IMG/VR virus record: IMGVR_UViG_3300021475_000034
Coordinates: 1-41,442 of that record
Source of the DNA: a virus
Direction: 5' to 3' (one strand)
Length of the DNA stretch: 41,442 nucleotides
Part shown: in pieces, positions 7,729 to 41,442 of the stretch
Numbering within the stretch: the stretch's first letter is position 1
How the letters are laid out: every line of letters starts with the position of its first letter
Translations under genes and position numbers: made by a program
Notes under the pieces: generated by a model
Databases searched by the model: none
Told to the model about the DNA's origin: nothing
What the model saw: the letters and a program-made list of their open reading frames with translations, nothing else

Positions 7729-8615
7729 ATTTCAAACTCTTTACTTATAGATTTAGACAGCGAGAGGATGCGCTCTTTGTCGATGGAACAGCCTAAACGC
7801 TGCAAACGTTCAATAAATTCATCCAGCGTCCAATCGTCCTTTGCGCGATTGCAAAAAGCACAACAGGGCAACACATTGTTGGAAACGTACCCATTAGAGG
7901 AATCAACTCGATCAATTCCAGAAAAGATTAAAAGGTTGTCGAGGTCAGTGATACGCCTAGCGCCAGAGCCGTTATTAATTGTGATTTTTCGTCCATAGAA
8001 GTTGGCCGGGGGTGAAGAACAATAAGCACATGGCAAGCCGGAAATATATTGAAATTGGGGCAGTGTCAATGTGCATGGAACGCCGCGTTTACGAGCGCGA
8101 TGCCGTAGTTGAGAAAGAAGGCATCGCCACTCCGTATCCAATACTTTGCGCCCAACTCTTTTGCACCCACATCCCCCACTATTACCGCTTTTGAGATTCA
8201 TGTATGCGACTACACGCTCAGTTTTATCCTTACAATCACAACGAACGAGACAGGCGCGAAATTTAAATTCACCGACCTCTAAGATGCGCTCGTTATCTAT
8301 GACAGTGTATTGGTCAAAGCGATAACCAATTGGAATCTGATAGCGCAATTTCTTACACTGAGCACATCCACGTTCACCATCACGTTTACGCATCTTGCCG
8401 CCACGAATCAGGCGCTCGAATCCGCAATCACAGCGAACCTGATAGTAGTACGACCGATCAGCCCTATCTAGTAGGCGTATTTGGCTCCCAATGATGGTGT
8501 TGCTACCCCATCGAGTGCCAATCTCTAACGGAGGAGTCTTAGTTCCACATCGTCGGTCAATTTTTATATAGGATTGGGGAGACGGCACAACATCCTGTTC
8601 AAGCAGGTTGGTCAT
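7725..8615 (-). CDS. HNH endonuclease (free-standing homing type)
   Basis: 296 residues. Two cysteine modules (CDCG..CAQC at about 62-87; CDCK..CGCK at about 126-152) precede a C-terminal HNH region: CAYCSSPP (196-203), SGIDRVDSSNGY (232-243) and CCAFCNRAKDDWTLDEF (251-267). The D-R-x-D-x..GY then C..CN.AK pattern is that of HNH nucleases in phage genomes, with the zinc knuckles probably giving DNA-target specificity. It lies on the strand opposite to all flanking virion genes, between terminase and portal, and has its own promoter and a GGAGGGCTGAAA ribosome site. This is the usual look of a mobile homing cassette. A terminase-associated HNH protein aiding cos cleavage is a less likely alternative, because such proteins are normally co-directional with terL. 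Confidence 0.8.
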   Translation of the reverse strand: MTNLLEQDVVPSPQSYIKIDRRCGTKTPPLEIGTRWGSNTIIGSQIRLLDRADRSYYYQVRCDCGFERLIRGGKMRKRDGERGCAQCKKLRYQIPIGYRFDQYTVIDNERILEVGEFKFRACLVRCDCKDKTERVVAYMNLKSGNSGGCGCKRVGRKVLDTEWRCLLSQLRHRARKRGVPCTLTLPQFQYISGLPCAYCSSPPANFYGRKITINNGSGARRITDLDNLLIFSGIDRVDSSNGYVSNNVLPCCAFCNRAKDDWTLDEFIERLQRLGCSIDKERILSLSKSISKEFEI

Positions 8616-37766: not shown

Positions 37767-38075
37767 TCAAACCTTTCTATTTCCAGGAACATATTCGTTA
37801 AGCGCGTTTGCGATCCGCCGCGCCATTGTCTTAGACCGCGTGATTGCCACAGTCTCTTCGCCCTCAATTACGTTGTAGTCGGACGCTACAAAGATGGTGT
37901 TTGGCGGATTGTTTGCAGAGAGAAATCCGCCAGCCTCAAGAGCCGCTTCGATGGAAGCGCCAGAGCTGACGAGCCGCGTCCGAGTGAAGACGTGGAACCC
38001 GCCAGCGTAGCGGACAATTGCAGGAGCAAACAAACGCGCGTCGCGTAGCACTTGCATACCTTCGCGCCAATCCAT
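37767..38075 (-). CDS. Hypothetical protein
   Basis: 102 residues from ATG 38075, with AAGGAGTTTT upstream; the frame is open from 38120 without a site. Alpha/beta pattern: AIVRYAGGFHVFTRTRLV, IEAALEAGGFLSANN, then ITRSKTMARRIANALNEYVP. The last segment looks like a helix that might bind nucleic acid. Unrecognised. Unlike the five genes upstream in the same direction it lacks the GNRA leader; a different hairpin occupies that place. Confidence 0.55.
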   Translation of the reverse strand: MDWREGMQVLRDARLFAPAIVRYAGGFHVFTRTRLVSSGASIEAALEAGGFLSANNPPNTIFVASDYNVIEGEETVAITRSKTMARRIANALNEYVPGNRKV

Positions 38076-38092
38076 AAAACTCCTTCGGGCCG

Positions 38093-38118
38093 GATAACGC
38101 GCCGACCGCGCGGTTATC
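38093..38118 (-). promoter_or_regulatory. Leader hairpin upstream of the 37767-38075 gene
   Basis: GATAA-CGCGC (38093-38102) pairs with GCGCG-TTATC (38108-38118, one bulged G) around a 5-base loop. It sits between the stop of the upstream gene and the ribosome site of the next, the position the GNRA hairpin takes for the other genes. It could be a regulatory or stabilising structure; there is no T-run for termination. Confidence 0.45.
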
Positions 38119-38120
38119 AT

Positions 38121-38447
38121 TTATGCAAAAAATTCAAAAATCTCCGCATAGCGTGGATCAGTTAGCCAAATTGTTTCGTGCTGGAATTTCATATCACCCC
38201 GCATGATGGAGATGAAGCCATAAGCCGTAAACTCCGCGATGTAGGTCCGCCCGTCGTCACCGTCTACGATGCGAGCCATCTTTGCGAAGGTTAGCTTTTT
38301 AGGCGCTCCGTCTGTAATGCGGACGGCCCTCTCCCCCCTGCTAGTTTGTTCAATTTGAAAACGAGCCGTTACGCGCTTCGTTCTCCCACTTGGCCAATTC
38401 TCGATTGTGGCGGACATGCGTGGATTGCTGTATTTGATGGCTGACAT
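38121..38447 (-). CDS. Hypothetical protein
   Basis: 108 residues, with AAAGGAATATCCGA before the ATG. Beta-rich: MSATIENWPSGRTKRVTARF, RAVRITDGAPKKLTFAKMAR, then GRTYIAEFTAYGFISIM. No motif recognised. Its leader carries the GNRA hairpin (38467-38487), but no clear promoter, so it may be expressed by read-through. Confidence 0.6.
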   Translation of the reverse strand: MSAIKYSNPRMSATIENWPSGRTKRVTARFQIEQTSRGERAVRITDGAPKKLTFAKMARIVDGDDGRTYIAEFTAYGFISIMRGDMKFQHETIWLTDPRYAEIFEFFA

Positions 38448-38466
38448 TCGGATATTCCTTTCGCAG

Positions 38467-38487
38467 GTTGGGGGCTTTCGCCCGTCT
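38467..38487 (-). promoter_or_regulatory. GNRA leader hairpin, copy 1
   Basis: In the mRNA AGAC-GGGC-GAAA-GCCC-CCAAC: a 4-bp stem capped by a GAAA tetraloop, 19 nt before the start codon of the 108-residue gene. No good promoter is placed as for copies 2 and 5; it begins four bases after the stop of the preceding gene. Confidence 0.75.
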
Positions 38488-38491
38488 ATGG

Positions 38492-38710
38492 TTAGAAAGA
38501 TGTAGCAGAGAGACCGTTAAGAGTCTTGTGTGGCGTAGGCTGATTGATTACGCGACCGTCAGCCAGGACAGAGAAACCGCAGAACTCCGCAGCTTCTACC
38601 GCTTCACGCAGGGATGAGAAAAGCATAGGCGAGCCAATCATGCGATACGGTCGCCCGTCGTCTACAAAGATGAATTGTTCGGTTTGGGGTACAAGGATTA
38701 GATTGAGCAT
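38492..38710 (-). CDS. Small hypothetical protein
   Basis: 72 residues, with GGGAGATTTCAAA before the ATG. Strand-rich N-terminus (LNLILVPQTEQFIFVDDGRP) then SLREAVEAAEFCGFSVLADG, a small alpha/beta unit that recalls short phage proteins of similar layout; no family named. It has its own strong promoter and GNRA leader. Confidence 0.6.
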   Translation of the reverse strand: MLNLILVPQTEQFIFVDDGRPYRMIGSPMLFSSLREAVEAAEFCGFSVLADGRVINQPTPHKTLNGLSATSF

Positions 38711-38730
38711 TTTGAAATCTCCCGTTAGAA

Positions 38731-38751
38731 GTTGGGGGCTTTCGCCCGTCT
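38731..38751 (-). promoter_or_regulatory. GNRA leader hairpin, copy 2
   Basis: GGGC-GAAA-GCCC hairpin, 20 nt before the start codon of the 72-residue gene. It begins seven bases after a TATAGT -10 box, so the RNA should start at or next to the first base of the element. Confidence 0.8.
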
Positions 38752-38758
38752 GTAAATA

Positions 38759-38787
38759 ACTATAACTATACTATGCTGCGGAGTCAA
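38759..38787 (-). promoter_or_regulatory. Sigma70-type promoter of the 72-residue gene
   Basis: TTGACT (38787-38782), a 17-bp spacer, TATAGT (38764-38759). The -35 box and most of the spacer lie in the last codons of the upstream gene. The predicted start, about seven bases downstream, coincides with the leader hairpin. Confidence 0.7.
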
Positions 38788-39496
38788 TGGAGGAACCCGC
38801 TTTATTTCGCGCGGATTCCTCAGTGTAATATTCGATGATCGACTTGGCGCAGCGCATCTCACGTGCCGCCGAGCAGATATAACGGCAGGCATTCAACGCA
38901 TTACGAAGGTTATAAAGCGCACGATGTTCACCACCTAAAAAGGTAGGCCAATTCTCACCCGCAGCGATGCGATGCTTTTGAGCATCGCAAAACTCGCGCA
39001 CAGCCTCAGAAATTTGAAAGAGCTTAAAGCCGTCAGCATATTCTGGTGCAAGCATCCGATAAGTTGCAGCTCTGGAGCCATCATGCCAATCCCGCAATTC
39101 GGTGTAACGTTTGTCGTACTCAAATTTGCGGCCCCCAATTTTCTTCAGTTGCACGGAGAAGTAACGACGCTTTGACCAGTCTTTATCAGATTCCTTGTAG
39201 ACGACCGATGCAGCAAACGCCAACTCATCCGCATCCGGCCCTTGTGACATTTCGTAATCCGCAGCCTCTACCAACTCCGCGTTTGTGAGCATAGCGGCCC
39301 CCAGGGATTGAAGATAGTCCGTTAGTAGATCCCACGTTACCGCGCGATCATTTGAATGTTGAATGGAGCCGTCACCATAGGTTTCAAAGACGAGGAACTT
39401 GCGCGAGACTCCGCTTTTAGTGTCCCAGTTAGAAGAGTCGAACTTATAGCCGTATTTGTCGGAATGAGCGATGGATGCAAAAGTGAAGACTGGCAT
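38771..39496 (-). CDS. Hypothetical protein of the leader-hairpin operon
   Basis: 241 residues, with AAAGGAGATTTACAA before the ATG. The N-terminal half mixes strands (SRKFLVFETYGDGSIQHSND) and helices; the C-terminal half is helical with several Cys/His (EAVREFCDAQKHRIAAGENW; LNACRYICSAAREMRCAKSI). No known family is recognised. It lies between the DUF932 gene and the small 72-residue gene, carries the GNRA leader (GAGA version), and is therefore likely controlled with them. Confidence 0.65.
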   Translation of the reverse strand: MPVFTFASIAHSDKYGYKFDSSNWDTKSGVSRKFLVFETYGDGSIQHSNDRAVTWDLLTDYLQSLGAAMLTNAELVEAADYEMSQGPDADELAFAASVVYKESDKDWSKRRYFSVQLKKIGGRKFEYDKRYTELRDWHDGSRAATYRMLAPEYADGFKLFQISEAVREFCDAQKHRIAAGENWPTFLGGEHRALYNLRNALNACRYICSAAREMRCAKSIIEYYTEESARNKAGSSIDSAA

Positions 39497-39515
39497 TTGT
39501 AAATCTCCTTTGTTG

Positions 39516-39536
39516 GTTGGGGGCTCTCGCCCGTCT
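39516..39536 (-). promoter_or_regulatory. GNRA leader hairpin, copy 3
   Basis: GGGC-GAGA-GCCC version of the element, 19 nt before the start codon of the 241-residue gene. A -10-like TACACT (39550-39545) lies eight bases upstream without a recognisable -35; a 6-bp hairpin GTATCG/CGATAC (39548-39567) overlaps that place and may matter for control. Confidence 0.75.
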
Positions 39537-39580
39537 AGTTTTGGAGTGTATCGGCTTTGGACGATACATGCCGCATTAAA

Positions 39581-39602
39581 GCGGAGACCTTTCGGCCCCC
39601 GC
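39581..39602 (-). terminator. Hairpin after the DUF932 gene
   Basis: On the minus strand GCGGGGGCC-GAAA-GGTCTCCGC: nine pairs including two G-T pairs, closed by a GAAA loop and followed by TTTAAT. It starts 12 bases after the DUF932 stop. A weak intrinsic terminator or a 3'-end stabiliser. Confidence 0.5.
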
Positions 39603-39613
39603 TCCCATCTGCG

Positions 39614-40480
39614 TTAAGCTGCGGCTTTGACTCCTTTCAATTCCGCCATCTTTTCCGCCAGTTGCCAGAGCGCACGATTCAGACGGACATCTTGATCTAT
39701 ACCCTTAACTTCGCGCGTAGTGACCATACGACCGCGCGACCGATTAGTGCCAGGATTACGCGCGGACAGTCCGCCCTTGATTACGTTTTCTTGTACAACG
39801 TTCATGGTTCGATATAGGTCTGGAGCTGGACGCGACCAACTGGAGCCGTTCTCCGCGCGATCCGCAGAACGTCGCGGAGTTAAGAGCTGAGCTGCGGTAA
39901 TCGGAGTCTCGACTTTACCGTCCGGATCGGAGAAGCGGAGAGTGTGGGCAGCTTCAGCAAACGCGTTTTGCTCCCCCGCAGTTAGTTGCAATGCGCTCCA
40001 GTTTTCAATCGTTCCAAGCGCTTTCTGCGATTGTCCGATAATTTCAAAGCTACCTTCGATTACTTGGTTAACGATGTTTCCTTTATGGTGGACTGAAATT
40101 TCGCCCATGTTGCGCTCACATGCAACTAGACCATTAGTGCAAACAACGCGAAAGATACCAGAGAGCAATTTGTAAGAGGATGTCCCATCGTGAGAATTGA
40201 TTAAGACAACTTCAGGTACGTTACCGCCTTTAGCAGTTGCCAAAAAATCCGCATGGCGAAATCGAATCATGTGTTTTGTATATTCCGTTTTGCCTTCGAT
40301 GCGCGACCGTGATTGCACGGCCCTAAATGGAACGAAGCCTTCGCCCATTAGGTCGGAAATAATCTCGGATGTTGGAATGTGAGCGTAACGCGACGACCGT
40401 GAAGAATGGGCTTCAGTTGCGAAGGCTGAAGGAACAAGCTGACGGAGAGCATCGATTGTAAGAGCGTTTGAGAATTGCAT
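39614..40480 (-). CDS. DUF932-family phage/plasmid-like protein
   Basis: 288 residues, with AATAGGAGATTACAAA before the ATG. The motif order RSSRYAHIPTSEIISDLMGE - GFVPFRAVQSRSR - KHMIRFRH - PEVVLINSHDGTSSYKLLSG - IFRVVCTNGLVACERNMGEI is that of DUF932: SxRY..I.T..ii..L...Gf.p......R, then .R.R......EivL.NSHDG...y.l..G.fR.vC.NGl. The family is widespread on phages and plasmids; its biochemical role is not established. The end has RLNRALWQLAEKMAELK. It shares the GNRA leader with its neighbours and has its own promoter. Confidence 0.9.
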   Translation of the reverse strand: MQFSNALTIDALRQLVPSAFATEAHSSRSSRYAHIPTSEIISDLMGEGFVPFRAVQSRSRIEGKTEYTKHMIRFRHADFLATAKGGNVPEVVLINSHDGTSSYKLLSGIFRVVCTNGLVACERNMGEISVHHKGNIVNQVIEGSFEIIGQSQKALGTIENWSALQLTAGEQNAFAEAAHTLRFSDPDGKVETPITAAQLLTPRRSADRAENGSSWSRPAPDLYRTMNVVQENVIKGGLSARNPGTNRSRGRMVTTREVKGIDQDVRLNRALWQLAEKMAELKGVKAAA

Positions 40481-40502
40481 TTTGTAATCTCCTATTGCTG
40501 AA

Positions 40503-40523
40503 GTTGGGGGCTTTCGCCCGTCT
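40503..40523 (-). promoter_or_regulatory. GNRA leader hairpin, copy 4
   Basis: GGGC-GAAA-GCCC version, 22 nt before the DUF932 start codon. Unlike copies 2 and 5, the predicted transcript start is some 20 bases further upstream. Confidence 0.78.
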
Positions 40524-40548
40524 GGTGTTGAACTACTGAATAACTATA

Positions 40549-40577
40549 ACTATACATAACTATACCGCGTGATGCAA
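40549..40577 (-). promoter_or_regulatory. Sigma70-type promoter of the DUF932 gene
   Basis: TTGCAT (40577-40572), a 17-bp spacer, TATAGT (40554-40549). A second TATAGT follows directly, six bases on, and a third lies within the spacer, so GTATAGTTAT is repeated three times. Repeats of this motif could be alternative -10 boxes or a repressor site. The related GTTATAGTTATT lies before rusA. Confidence 0.6.
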
Positions 40578-40582
40578 TACCA

Positions 40583-41236
40583 TTAATCCTTAACCAGTGT
40601 TAATTCTTGCTGGAGTGCATTCAGCGCCATACGGATGTTGGAATTAGAGTCTTTTACGATACGCGCGAAGTTTGGCGCTTCAGCTCCTTCAGGCGCTTCA
40701 GCTTTCCAGACTCGCGCGAGTAGTGCGGCAGAATCCTTTTGTGTGGCTTGCGAACTGAAGTTGTAGGACTGGCAGCGAGAGATAAATCGATCTTCGAATT
40801 TCTCCACGTCATTTGATGTCATTACTATGATTGTGTTGGGAGCTGGTCTCGTTCCATCCATCATAGAGAGCAGGCAATCGCGCGAAGCTTTTGTCATTAA
40901 ATCCGCTTCATCGATGATTATCATGTGGCAGCGTTTACCCTGCGAAGGCATATAGAAACACGCGCTATAGTGACGCTCCAGTTCCGCTTCAGTGCAATAC
41001 TTTGACGGAATGTGATGCACGTCAGCGCCAATCTCTTCAGCCATAGCGAATGCAAATGTAGTTTTGCCGATACCGGACGGACCACGAAAAATGTAATAAG
41101 AGCTGAAAGGCTTTTTAGCGAGTGCGACCGCTAGACGTTTGGGCTTTTCTAGTCCGACAAATTCCGCCGTAGTTTTGGGTTTATAGATGTCTGTCAGTAG
41201 AAGCGAGTCTTGATTGTCTGGAGTGAAGTCGAACAT
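40583..41236 (-). CDS. AAA+ ATPase, clamp-loader (RFC/DnaX)-like
   Basis: 217 residues, with GGAGAATAACGCTT before the ATG. IYKPKTTAEFVGLEK at the N-terminus, Walker A GPSGIGKTT (52-60), Walker B MIIIDEAD (105-112), sensor 1 VMTSND (138-143) and SRC (153-155) follow the clamp-loader pattern; SRC carries the trans-acting arginine finger of RFC and DnaX subunits. The C-terminal part has a sensor-2-like NSNIRMALNALQQE. The collar domain is missing, so the protein is shorter than RFC small subunits (about 320). No sliding clamp or polymerase is seen in the window. It is the first gene of the leftward operon and has its own strong promoter and GNRA leader. Confidence 0.85.
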   Translation of the reverse strand: MFDFTPDNQDSLLLTDIYKPKTTAEFVGLEKPKRLAVALAKKPFSSYYIFRGPSGIGKTTFAFAMAEEIGADVHHIPSKYCTEAELERHYSACFYMPSQGKRCHMIIIDEADLMTKASRDCLLSMMDGTRPAPNTIIVMTSNDVEKFEDRFISRCQSYNFSSQATQKDSAALLARVWKAEAPEGAEAPNFARIVKDSNSNIRMALNALQQELTLVKD

Positions 41237-41258
41237 AAGCGTTATTCTCCGCGTTGAA

Positions 41259-41279
41259 GTTGGGGGCTCTCGCCCGTCT
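41259..41279 (-). promoter_or_regulatory. GNRA leader hairpin, copy 5
   Basis: GGGC-GAGA-GCCC version, 22 nt before the start codon of the AAA+ gene. The -10 box TATTCT ends seven bases before the element, so this hairpin too should form the very 5' end of the mRNA. Confidence 0.8.
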
Positions 41280-41286
41280 GTAATTG

Positions 41287-41315
41287 AGAATAGGGAAACG
41301 GTCGCAAGATGTCAA
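41287..41315 (-). promoter_or_regulatory. Strong sigma70-type promoter of the AAA+ gene
   Basis: TTGACA (41315-41310), a 17-bp spacer and TATTCT (41292-41287): a full consensus -35, ideal spacing and a moderate -10. This is the best minus-strand promoter in the window and drives the first gene of the leftward operon. Confidence 0.8.
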
Positions 41316-41348
41316 CTGAAGGCTTGGGAATAGTTGCCAAACCTTATC

Positions 41349-41442
41349 CAAGCCACCTGCAAACCGTCCGCTAACGGCTGGATGATAGCAGCATGGGACG
41401 CGATGCAAGCCACCCGCAAACCGTCCGCAAGCCACCCGCAGA
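41349..41442. repeat. Direct repeats at the right end of the window
   Basis: CAAGCCACCTGCAAACCGTC (extending to 41371) recurs with one change at 41406-41428, and a third copy begins at 41428 and runs to the last bases of the window, where it diverges. The second and third copies are 22 bp apart, the same period as the RepA iterons, but the sequence is different. The array lies upstream of the AAA+ operon promoter and no gene is supported in 41316-41442. It may be a second protein-binding array or an origin element. Confidence 0.65.

Follow-up and report, generated by a model that had tools for sequence, protein, structure and literature searches.

Five consecutive leftward genes of a viral contig are each preceded by the same 21-nt hairpin. 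In our reading, on which our confidence is evenly balanced, this element would be a modular stem-loop in the 5' leaders of an early-type block of phage genes, acting by structure rather than by sequence. Its repetition, its placement, its covariation and its turnover between phages are seen directly in the sequences, as are the promoters upstream of some copies and the twister ribozymes upstream of others. The window, i.e. the whole stretch of DNA analysed (41,442 nt), is a 41-kb contig from a phage of the SU10-portal type. The genes of the block and their hairpins are:

40583..41236, minus strand: AAA+ clamp-loader-like ATPase, 217 aa
39614..40480, minus strand: DUF932 protein (PF06067), 288 aa
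38771..39496, minus strand: protein without assigned function, 241 aa, homologues in G002, G004 and G009
38492..38710, minus strand: protein without assigned function, 72 aa
38121..38447, minus strand: protein without assigned function, 108 aa, conserved across many phages
38467..38487, minus strand: hairpin copy 1, GAAA loop, 19 nt before the ATG at 38447
38731..38751, minus strand: hairpin copy 2, GAAA loop, 20 nt before the ATG at 38710
39516..39536, minus strand: hairpin copy 3, GAGA loop, 19 nt before the ATG at 39496, stem 17 nt past a twister ribozyme
40503..40523, minus strand: hairpin copy 4, GAAA loop, 22 nt before the ATG of the DUF932 gene at 40480
41259..41279, minus strand: hairpin copy 5, GAGA loop, 22 nt before the ATG of the clamp-loader gene at 41236

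The core AGACGGGC-GNRA-GCCCCCAAC, a tetraloop on a 4-bp stem, has exactly five exact matches within the window, every one on the minus strand (38472-38483, 38736-38747, 39521-39532, 40508-40519 and 41264-41275). In dinucleotide shuffles of the window the mean was 0.10 matches and five were never reached; an origin of the five-copy core by chance is excluded. The first-pass annotation had placed one copy 19-22 nt ahead of each of five leftward start codons in a row, with a single variable base in the tetraloop. Both statements held when all five copies were compared, the loop being GAAA in three copies and GAGA in two within an otherwise invariant element, and a Shine-Dalgarno-like site is present in all five gaps between element and ATG. 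Adjoining the hairpin block, a second covarying leader was observed:

38088..38112, minus strand: H-type pseudoknot, a second leader type, preceding the next gene (start codon near 38075)

Three promoter candidates of the sigma70 type lie upstream of hairpin copies:

41287..41315, minus strand: predicted promoter TTGACA-17-TATTCT, 7 nt before copy 5
38759..38787, minus strand: predicted promoter TTGACT-17-TATAGT, 7 nt before copy 2
40549..40577, minus strand: weaker candidate TTGCAT-17-TATAGT, with 29 nt between its -10 box and the stem of copy 4

The promoters of copies 2 and 5 are the two top-scoring ones of the gene block, in agreement with the earlier observation that the element begins exactly 7 nt after a -10 box at these two copies; upstream of copies 1 and 3 no convincing promoter was found. 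In the related phage G008, a -10 box lies 8-9 nt upstream of all nine listed copies and a -35 box accompanies eight of the nine. The earlier proposal that the element forms the 5' terminus of the mRNA agrees, on promoter prediction, with copies 2 and 5 and with the nine G008 copies, while the remaining copies sit internally or downstream of a ribozyme. Since neither a promoter nor a twister is found close upstream of copy 1 and of many copies in relatives, these are probably internal to longer mRNAs, barring processing of other kinds. The distance from hairpin to start codon (sd 5.1) varies less than that from the -10 box to the hairpin (sd 9.5), and by this measure hairpin placement tracks the start codon more tightly than the predicted promoter.

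Upstream of copy 3 lies a ribozyme that had been missed in the first-pass annotation:

39550..39613, minus strand: type-P5 twister self-cleaving ribozyme (RF02684), Rfam match of 53.7 bits, flush with the stop codon of the DUF932 gene

The score exceeds the gathering cut-off of 37.6 and makes the ribozyme a member of RF02684 by covariance-model match, cleavage itself being predicted; the hairpin lies outside the twister fold. Twister cleavage leaves a 5'-hydroxyl on the downstream RNA. The twister and hairpin module of copy 3 is conserved in five relatives, and the order ribozyme, hairpin, ribosome-binding site is seen at copy 3 and at its equivalents in G001, G002, G006 (twice) and G009. The gap between twister and stop codon is 0 or -1 nt in seven of seven cases and that between twister and hairpin 15-17 nt in five of six. 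G003 has retained the twister and lacks the hairpin after it.

The exact element has no match in IMG/VR outside the window's own record, and no DNA similarity of the window to phage records was found. In structure, by contrast, equivalents occur in ten related phages, so that the search for copies elsewhere, proposed in the earlier annotation, failed for the sequence and succeeded for the fold, with compensating stem changes. Across these 11 phages, the window included, 60 copies were listed. They stand on the coding strand before start codons, both of the same genes and of many unrelated gene families, they are usually followed by NCAAC, and in the contigs scanned whole they are confined to the gene block. 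Because a MAFFT alignment put some short hairpins out of register, a script was used to tally the pairs at each stem position. The hairpin's four pairs hold too little information for a discriminating covariance model. By this count 59 of 60 cells pair, compared with a mean of 43 when arms were permuted (p<=5e-5). Twelve elements, most of which were detected only by being repeated, have better predicted folds than their shuffled versions (combined p 1.6e-11). The stem of G001 has only 3 bp and its folding alone is not significant (p=0.12), and when a longer context is folded, poor pairing is predicted for 15 of the 60 copies. Hairpins at homologous positions with compensating stem changes support the RNA-level role suggested earlier. 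The GNRA loop from which that role had been argued is itself not the conserved feature, as judged from relatives with UCCG, CUCG, UUUG, GAC, CAUAGC, GGAU and other loops; this range of GNRA, UNCG and unrelated classes suggests that a stable hairpin is kept and not a loop sequence.

Similar units were also found farther afield. A pattern scan of the whole of IMG/VR gave multi-copy matches only in G005, G006 and G010, the last an unrelated siphophage contig with about ten similar units, built on other stems and comprising six stem-loop sequences, most of the units having matching promoters. Single pattern matches in Mycobacterium and Streptomyces phages were indistinguishable from chance or coding overlap and were left uncounted. 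Wider DUF932 relatives, Acidobacteriales and Acetobacteraceae contigs among them, yielded no convincing case of a leader hairpin that is repeated; several have one hairpin before DUF932.

According to the explanation that we prefer, each gene would carry a standard front end in which a GC-rich stem of 3-8 bp is followed by NCAAC and the ribosome-binding site, the stem sitting just outside the likely ribosome footprint. The hairpin would fold in the mRNA and act through its structure, not its sequence. It may hinder 5'-end-dependent decay, the 5' end being set by a promoter or by twister cleavage, and may stop upstream RNA from pairing with the ribosome site; expression of each gene would then be independent of upstream context. 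In favour of this, predicted openness of the ribosome site is 0.57 in hairpin genes versus 0.49 (p about 0.01); against it, the predicted folding of that site is no less dependent on context in these genes.

There are precedents. With a hairpin at its 5' end, bla mRNA is stabilised and RppH is impeded (PMC3997798), and the ompA, papA and bla constructs have a stem-loop at or near the mRNA 5' end before the ribosome site. Here, promoter prediction would put the stem-loops of copies 2 and 5 and those of G008 only a few nt from the 5' end of the transcript, but not the stem-loop of copy 1. Those leaders serve single genes, whereas here one hairpin type is used across a whole block, internal positions included. 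The synthetic insulator RiboJ, a self-cleaving ribozyme and a 23-nt hairpin before a ribosome-binding site, raises expression (PMC6206723) and has the same order of parts; it is engineered from the sTRSV ribozyme, whereas the window has a natural type-P5 twister abutting the previous gene's stop codon.

Membership in a described class is very improbable. Short GC hairpins in leaders, a GNRA-like loop and the association with starts give a superficial likeness, yet tests for radC RNA, boxA, SAS and terminators were all negative, refuting this reading at the sequence level. The radC RNA motif, a leader motif of mobile-element genes that had been suggested for comparison, gave no Rfam covariance-model match at E<=10 on 37900-41442. 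A lambda-type nut site (with boxB) was rejected, as boxA-like sequence is neither enriched nor near the copies, and so was an intrinsic terminator, since terminator prediction picked up none of the five hairpins and no T-run follows the stems. The SAS of Cluster K mycobacteriophages (GGGATAGGAGCCC) had 0 matches with up to 2 mismatches. SAS and ESAS are similar in being short one-orientation repeats before start codons of many non-structural phage genes, of unproven function, and the ESAS consensus (17-bp inverted repeats) likewise differs between subclusters. SAS is bound to the translation start itself, however, whereas the hairpin, 12-14 nt long, in most cases stops some 20-25 nt short of the start codon with the ribosome site outside it, and is accompanied by twister ribozymes and sigma70-type promoters. 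A role mainly as a DNA-level recombination linker between gene cassettes, the hairpin travelling with modular genes, is unlikely, although it can coexist with the structural role. The model for it would be the promoter-stem-loop (PeSL) cassettes, whose stem-loops serve as terminators. In T4-type phages these cassettes consist of an early sigma70-like promoter and a stem-loop and recur between genes in variable regions (PMC4503421). In favour of a linker, promoter and hairpin cassettes precede genes that are largely non-homologous, good promoters in the window being limited to copies 2 and 5, and the homogeneity of the copies points to exchange among repeats. Against this, the hairpins have no T-run, lie inside the leader and in several cases lack a promoter; their placement tracks the ribosome site, always on the coding strand, and the stems covary, while a linker needs no base pairing.

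Copy identity is 86% within and 59% between phages: most phages have near-identical copies, and relatives with proteins up to 90% identical have another stem in every copy. This concerted change is not required of a purely generic hairpin and counts against our main reading. It would fit a minority possibility that we take seriously, namely that a phage-specific factor acting in trans, be it a protein or an RNA, binds the hairpin and governs the whole block as one regulon at the level of translation or decay. Factor and site would co-evolve, giving each phage a stem and loop of its own. Gene conversion could also homogenise the copies, however, loop bases differ among copies of one phage, and a search of the rest of the phage for an antisense partner gave matches of no greater length than shuffled elements did. 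The earlier suggestion of an RNA-binding protein is possible, but a dedicated one is not favoured because two relatives (G008, with four different stems each 8-9 nt past a -10 box, and G007) and the unrelated G010 use several stems per genome. Slightly more doubtful still, the hairpins may be the address tag of a phage-encoded RNA regulon, in which a fast-evolving factor would read its own hairpin on all mRNAs of the block and set their translation or decay, tag and factor being replaced together between close relatives and twisters dividing the mRNA into units under separate control. An operator in the DNA, bound by a dimeric phage repressor and overlapping transcription starts, would be a palindrome that likewise covaries, is homogeneous within and changes between phages, and the fixed distance after the -10 box in G008 would suit it. 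We consider it quite improbable: many copies have no promoter, the hairpin is spaced less regularly from the -10 box than from the start codon, several unrelated palindromes occur within one phage, G007 and the GGGGUUGA stem of G008 have G-U pairs, and coding-strand GNRA and UNCG loops are RNA features.

If the structural explanation is right, the virus would have a natural, gene-by-gene version of a design that synthetic biologists arrived at independently, with a ribozyme cut, a hairpin and a ribosome site in succession. It also hints at a task for twister ribozymes, about whose role in bacterial biology little is known as far as we are aware. Some 60-70 natural variants provide a ready set for asking how a leader hairpin serves its mRNA and what makes all the copies of one genome change in concert.

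The window phage, a complete IMG/VR record of 41,442 bases, encodes an SU10-type portal protein (PF23899). Its structural set is found among the rightward genes, and a short leftward block at the right end codes for an AAA+ clamp-loader-like ATPase, a DUF932 protein and small proteins without known function. DNA similar to the window was not found in the phage collection. Since relatives of the DUF932 protein were located on cellular contigs of an Acidobacteriales MAG (56% identity) and of Acetobacteraceae, an acidobacterial host is a guess and not a result.

As described in the first-pass annotation, the same 21-nt element is located 19-22 nt upstream of five consecutive start codons of this block, and the copies differ in a single loop base. 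Exact matches to its core, GGGC-GNRA-GCCC, occur five times in the window, all within the block and on the coding strand, compared to 0.10 expected. Copies 2 and 5 start 7 nt past a -10 box, as had also been noted, and these boxes belong to the two best predicted sigma70-type promoters of the block. No copy of the exact element was found in the rest of IMG/VR, the hairpin matched no Rfam family, and radC RNA, the comparison proposed in that annotation, had no match at E<=10 over positions 37900-41442.

Close relatives of 40-44 kb (G001-G009 and L115) were gathered by searching with the DUF932 and 108-aa proteins of the block. Nearly all of them carry a repeated leader hairpin of their own, mostly detected by repetition alone, and every credible copy in G001-G009 lies within the block, on the coding strand and upstream of a start codon.

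Leader hairpins of related phages
G003 and G009: GGGU-GCAA-ACCC
G004: GGAGC-GAC-GCUCC
G005: GGGC-UCCG-GCCC
G006: GGGC-CUCG or UUUG or UUAG-GCCC
G002: GGCC-CAUAGC-GGCC
G001: GGG-CUAGU-CCC

Leaders with compensating stem changes, part of the support named in that annotation, were obtained in this way; together with those of the window, 60 copies in 11 phages are listed. Over 15 distinct hairpins, 59/60 arm cells were paired versus 43 with permuted arms, in a test that leans towards pairing as its arms had been chosen as hairpins. Stem pair 3 was seen as G-C, A-U, G-U, C-G and U-A, and pair 4 as C-G, G-C, U-A and A-U. Folding of the elements against shuffles gave a combined p of 1.6e-11, with G001, G004, G006 and L115 individually not significant. 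Most block leaders of G005 (L010/L026) contain two tandem hairpins, GCGGGCC-UCCG-GGCCCGC followed by GGGC-UCCG-GCCC, with a UCCG loop in both. A single hairpin just upstream of the ribosome site was also observed at more distant DUF932 genes (L030-L038, L014/L016, L071/L074; e.g. GGAAC-AUA-GUUCC or GAAGC-AUGAC-GCUUC-AAAC), where it is not repeated at other genes.

The hairpin precedes many unrelated gene families, and among homologous genes some have it and some do not. Copies are 86% identical within a phage versus 59% between phages, and the clamp loaders of the window and G002 are 90% identical, yet all hairpins differ between these two phages. Exceptions to this homogeneity are G007 and G008; the latter has four different stems, each 8-9 nt downstream of a -10 box, so that the hairpins would form the extreme 5' end of the transcript. 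About ten leader-hairpin units were found in G010 (IMGVR_UViG_3300021197_001349), an unrelated siphophage-like contig without DUF932, e.g. at 8023, 9371, 10603, 11912 and 33427 (minus strand). It was detected by a pattern resembling the element, although that pattern misses the majority of its copies. Its units have the stems GAGCC, GGGC and GGGGCCCC, carry in most cases a near-identical promoter, and share the CAAC-hairpin-NCAAC-AAGGA layout. The G010 promoter spacer additionally contains a TTGAC-n-GTCAA inverted repeat, which may be an operator. In several core phages, block promoters have repeated TATAGTTAT units about their -10 region (e.g. window 40540-40570 and 38755-38775, minus strand), where an activator or repressor common to these promoters may bind.

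Nearest in kind among described phenomena are the SAS/ESAS of Cluster K phages (PMC3203893); the SAS sequence was absent from the window. PeSL cassettes likewise combine a promoter with a stem-loop, as do copies 2 and 5 with their predicted promoters, but PeSL stem-loops act as terminators and none of the five window hairpins was called as one.

Two further RNA elements lie beside the hairpins.

Window features
39550-39613, minus strand: type-P5 twister ribozyme (53.7 bits), after the stop codon of the DUF932 gene and ahead of copy 3
38088-38112, minus strand: H-type pseudoknot leader, ending a few nt upstream of the ribosome site of the gene next to the hairpin genes

The twister genuinely belongs to its family and is also present in G001, G002, G003, G009 and, twice, in G006. 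The preceding stop codon lies 0 or -1 nt from it in 7/7 cases, and terminating ribosomes could therefore gate its folding or cleavage. The gap to the hairpin is 15-17 nt in 5/6 cases and 7 nt in G009; in G003 no hairpin follows. Cleavage is predicted before AAUGCGG, presumably leaving a 5'-hydroxyl behind.

The pseudoknot follows the pattern AAC-CGCN-n-S2-NGCG-n3-4-S2' and immediately precedes the ribosome site of differing genes. Covariation is strong, with CGCG:CGCG or CGCU:AGCG in stem 1 and GGUCGG:CCGGCC, GGACGG:CCGUCC, GCUGGG:CCCAGC, GCCCGG:CCGGGC and others in stem 2. It has no Rfam family. When 1.1 Mb were scanned for this structure, 14 matches were obtained versus 3 in reversed sequence. 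Of the 14, nine are the element itself, placed ahead of a start codon and belonging to phages of the window's kind.

Pseudoknot elements in relatives (locus, position)
L006, 2945
L007, 4134
L008, 3029
L011, 3842
L012, 2125
L019, 2961
L117, 5957
L119, 5855

According to a 2010 review, translational autoregulation by a viral pseudoknot was perhaps limited to T4-type gene 32 (PMC3014915).

Concerning the role of the hairpin, core copies that have a -10-like box are spaced less evenly from that box (sd 9.5) than from the start codon (sd 5.1), which points to a function in translation or in the mature leader, rather than in transcription control. Since loops switch among stable classes and stems change freely, the sequence comparison points to structure, rather than letters, as what matters. 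That the hairpin insulates the ribosome site from upstream sequence is weakly supported by folding predictions, because openness of the site was slightly greater in hairpin genes (0.57 vs 0.49), but its predicted dependence on upstream sequence was not reduced. In E. coli a 5' hairpin stabilises mRNA and impedes RppH (PMC3997798), and RiboJ, which couples a ribozyme to a downstream hairpin, increases expression (PMC6206723). Based on the distances, the loop and stem turnover, the openness and these precedents, we favor, with even confidence, a structural leader module that would shield the 5' region of the mRNA and would keep the ribosome site clear. The main fact that such a module leaves unexplained is the concerted turnover of the hairpins, which could be due to gene conversion among the copies or to a co-evolving factor.
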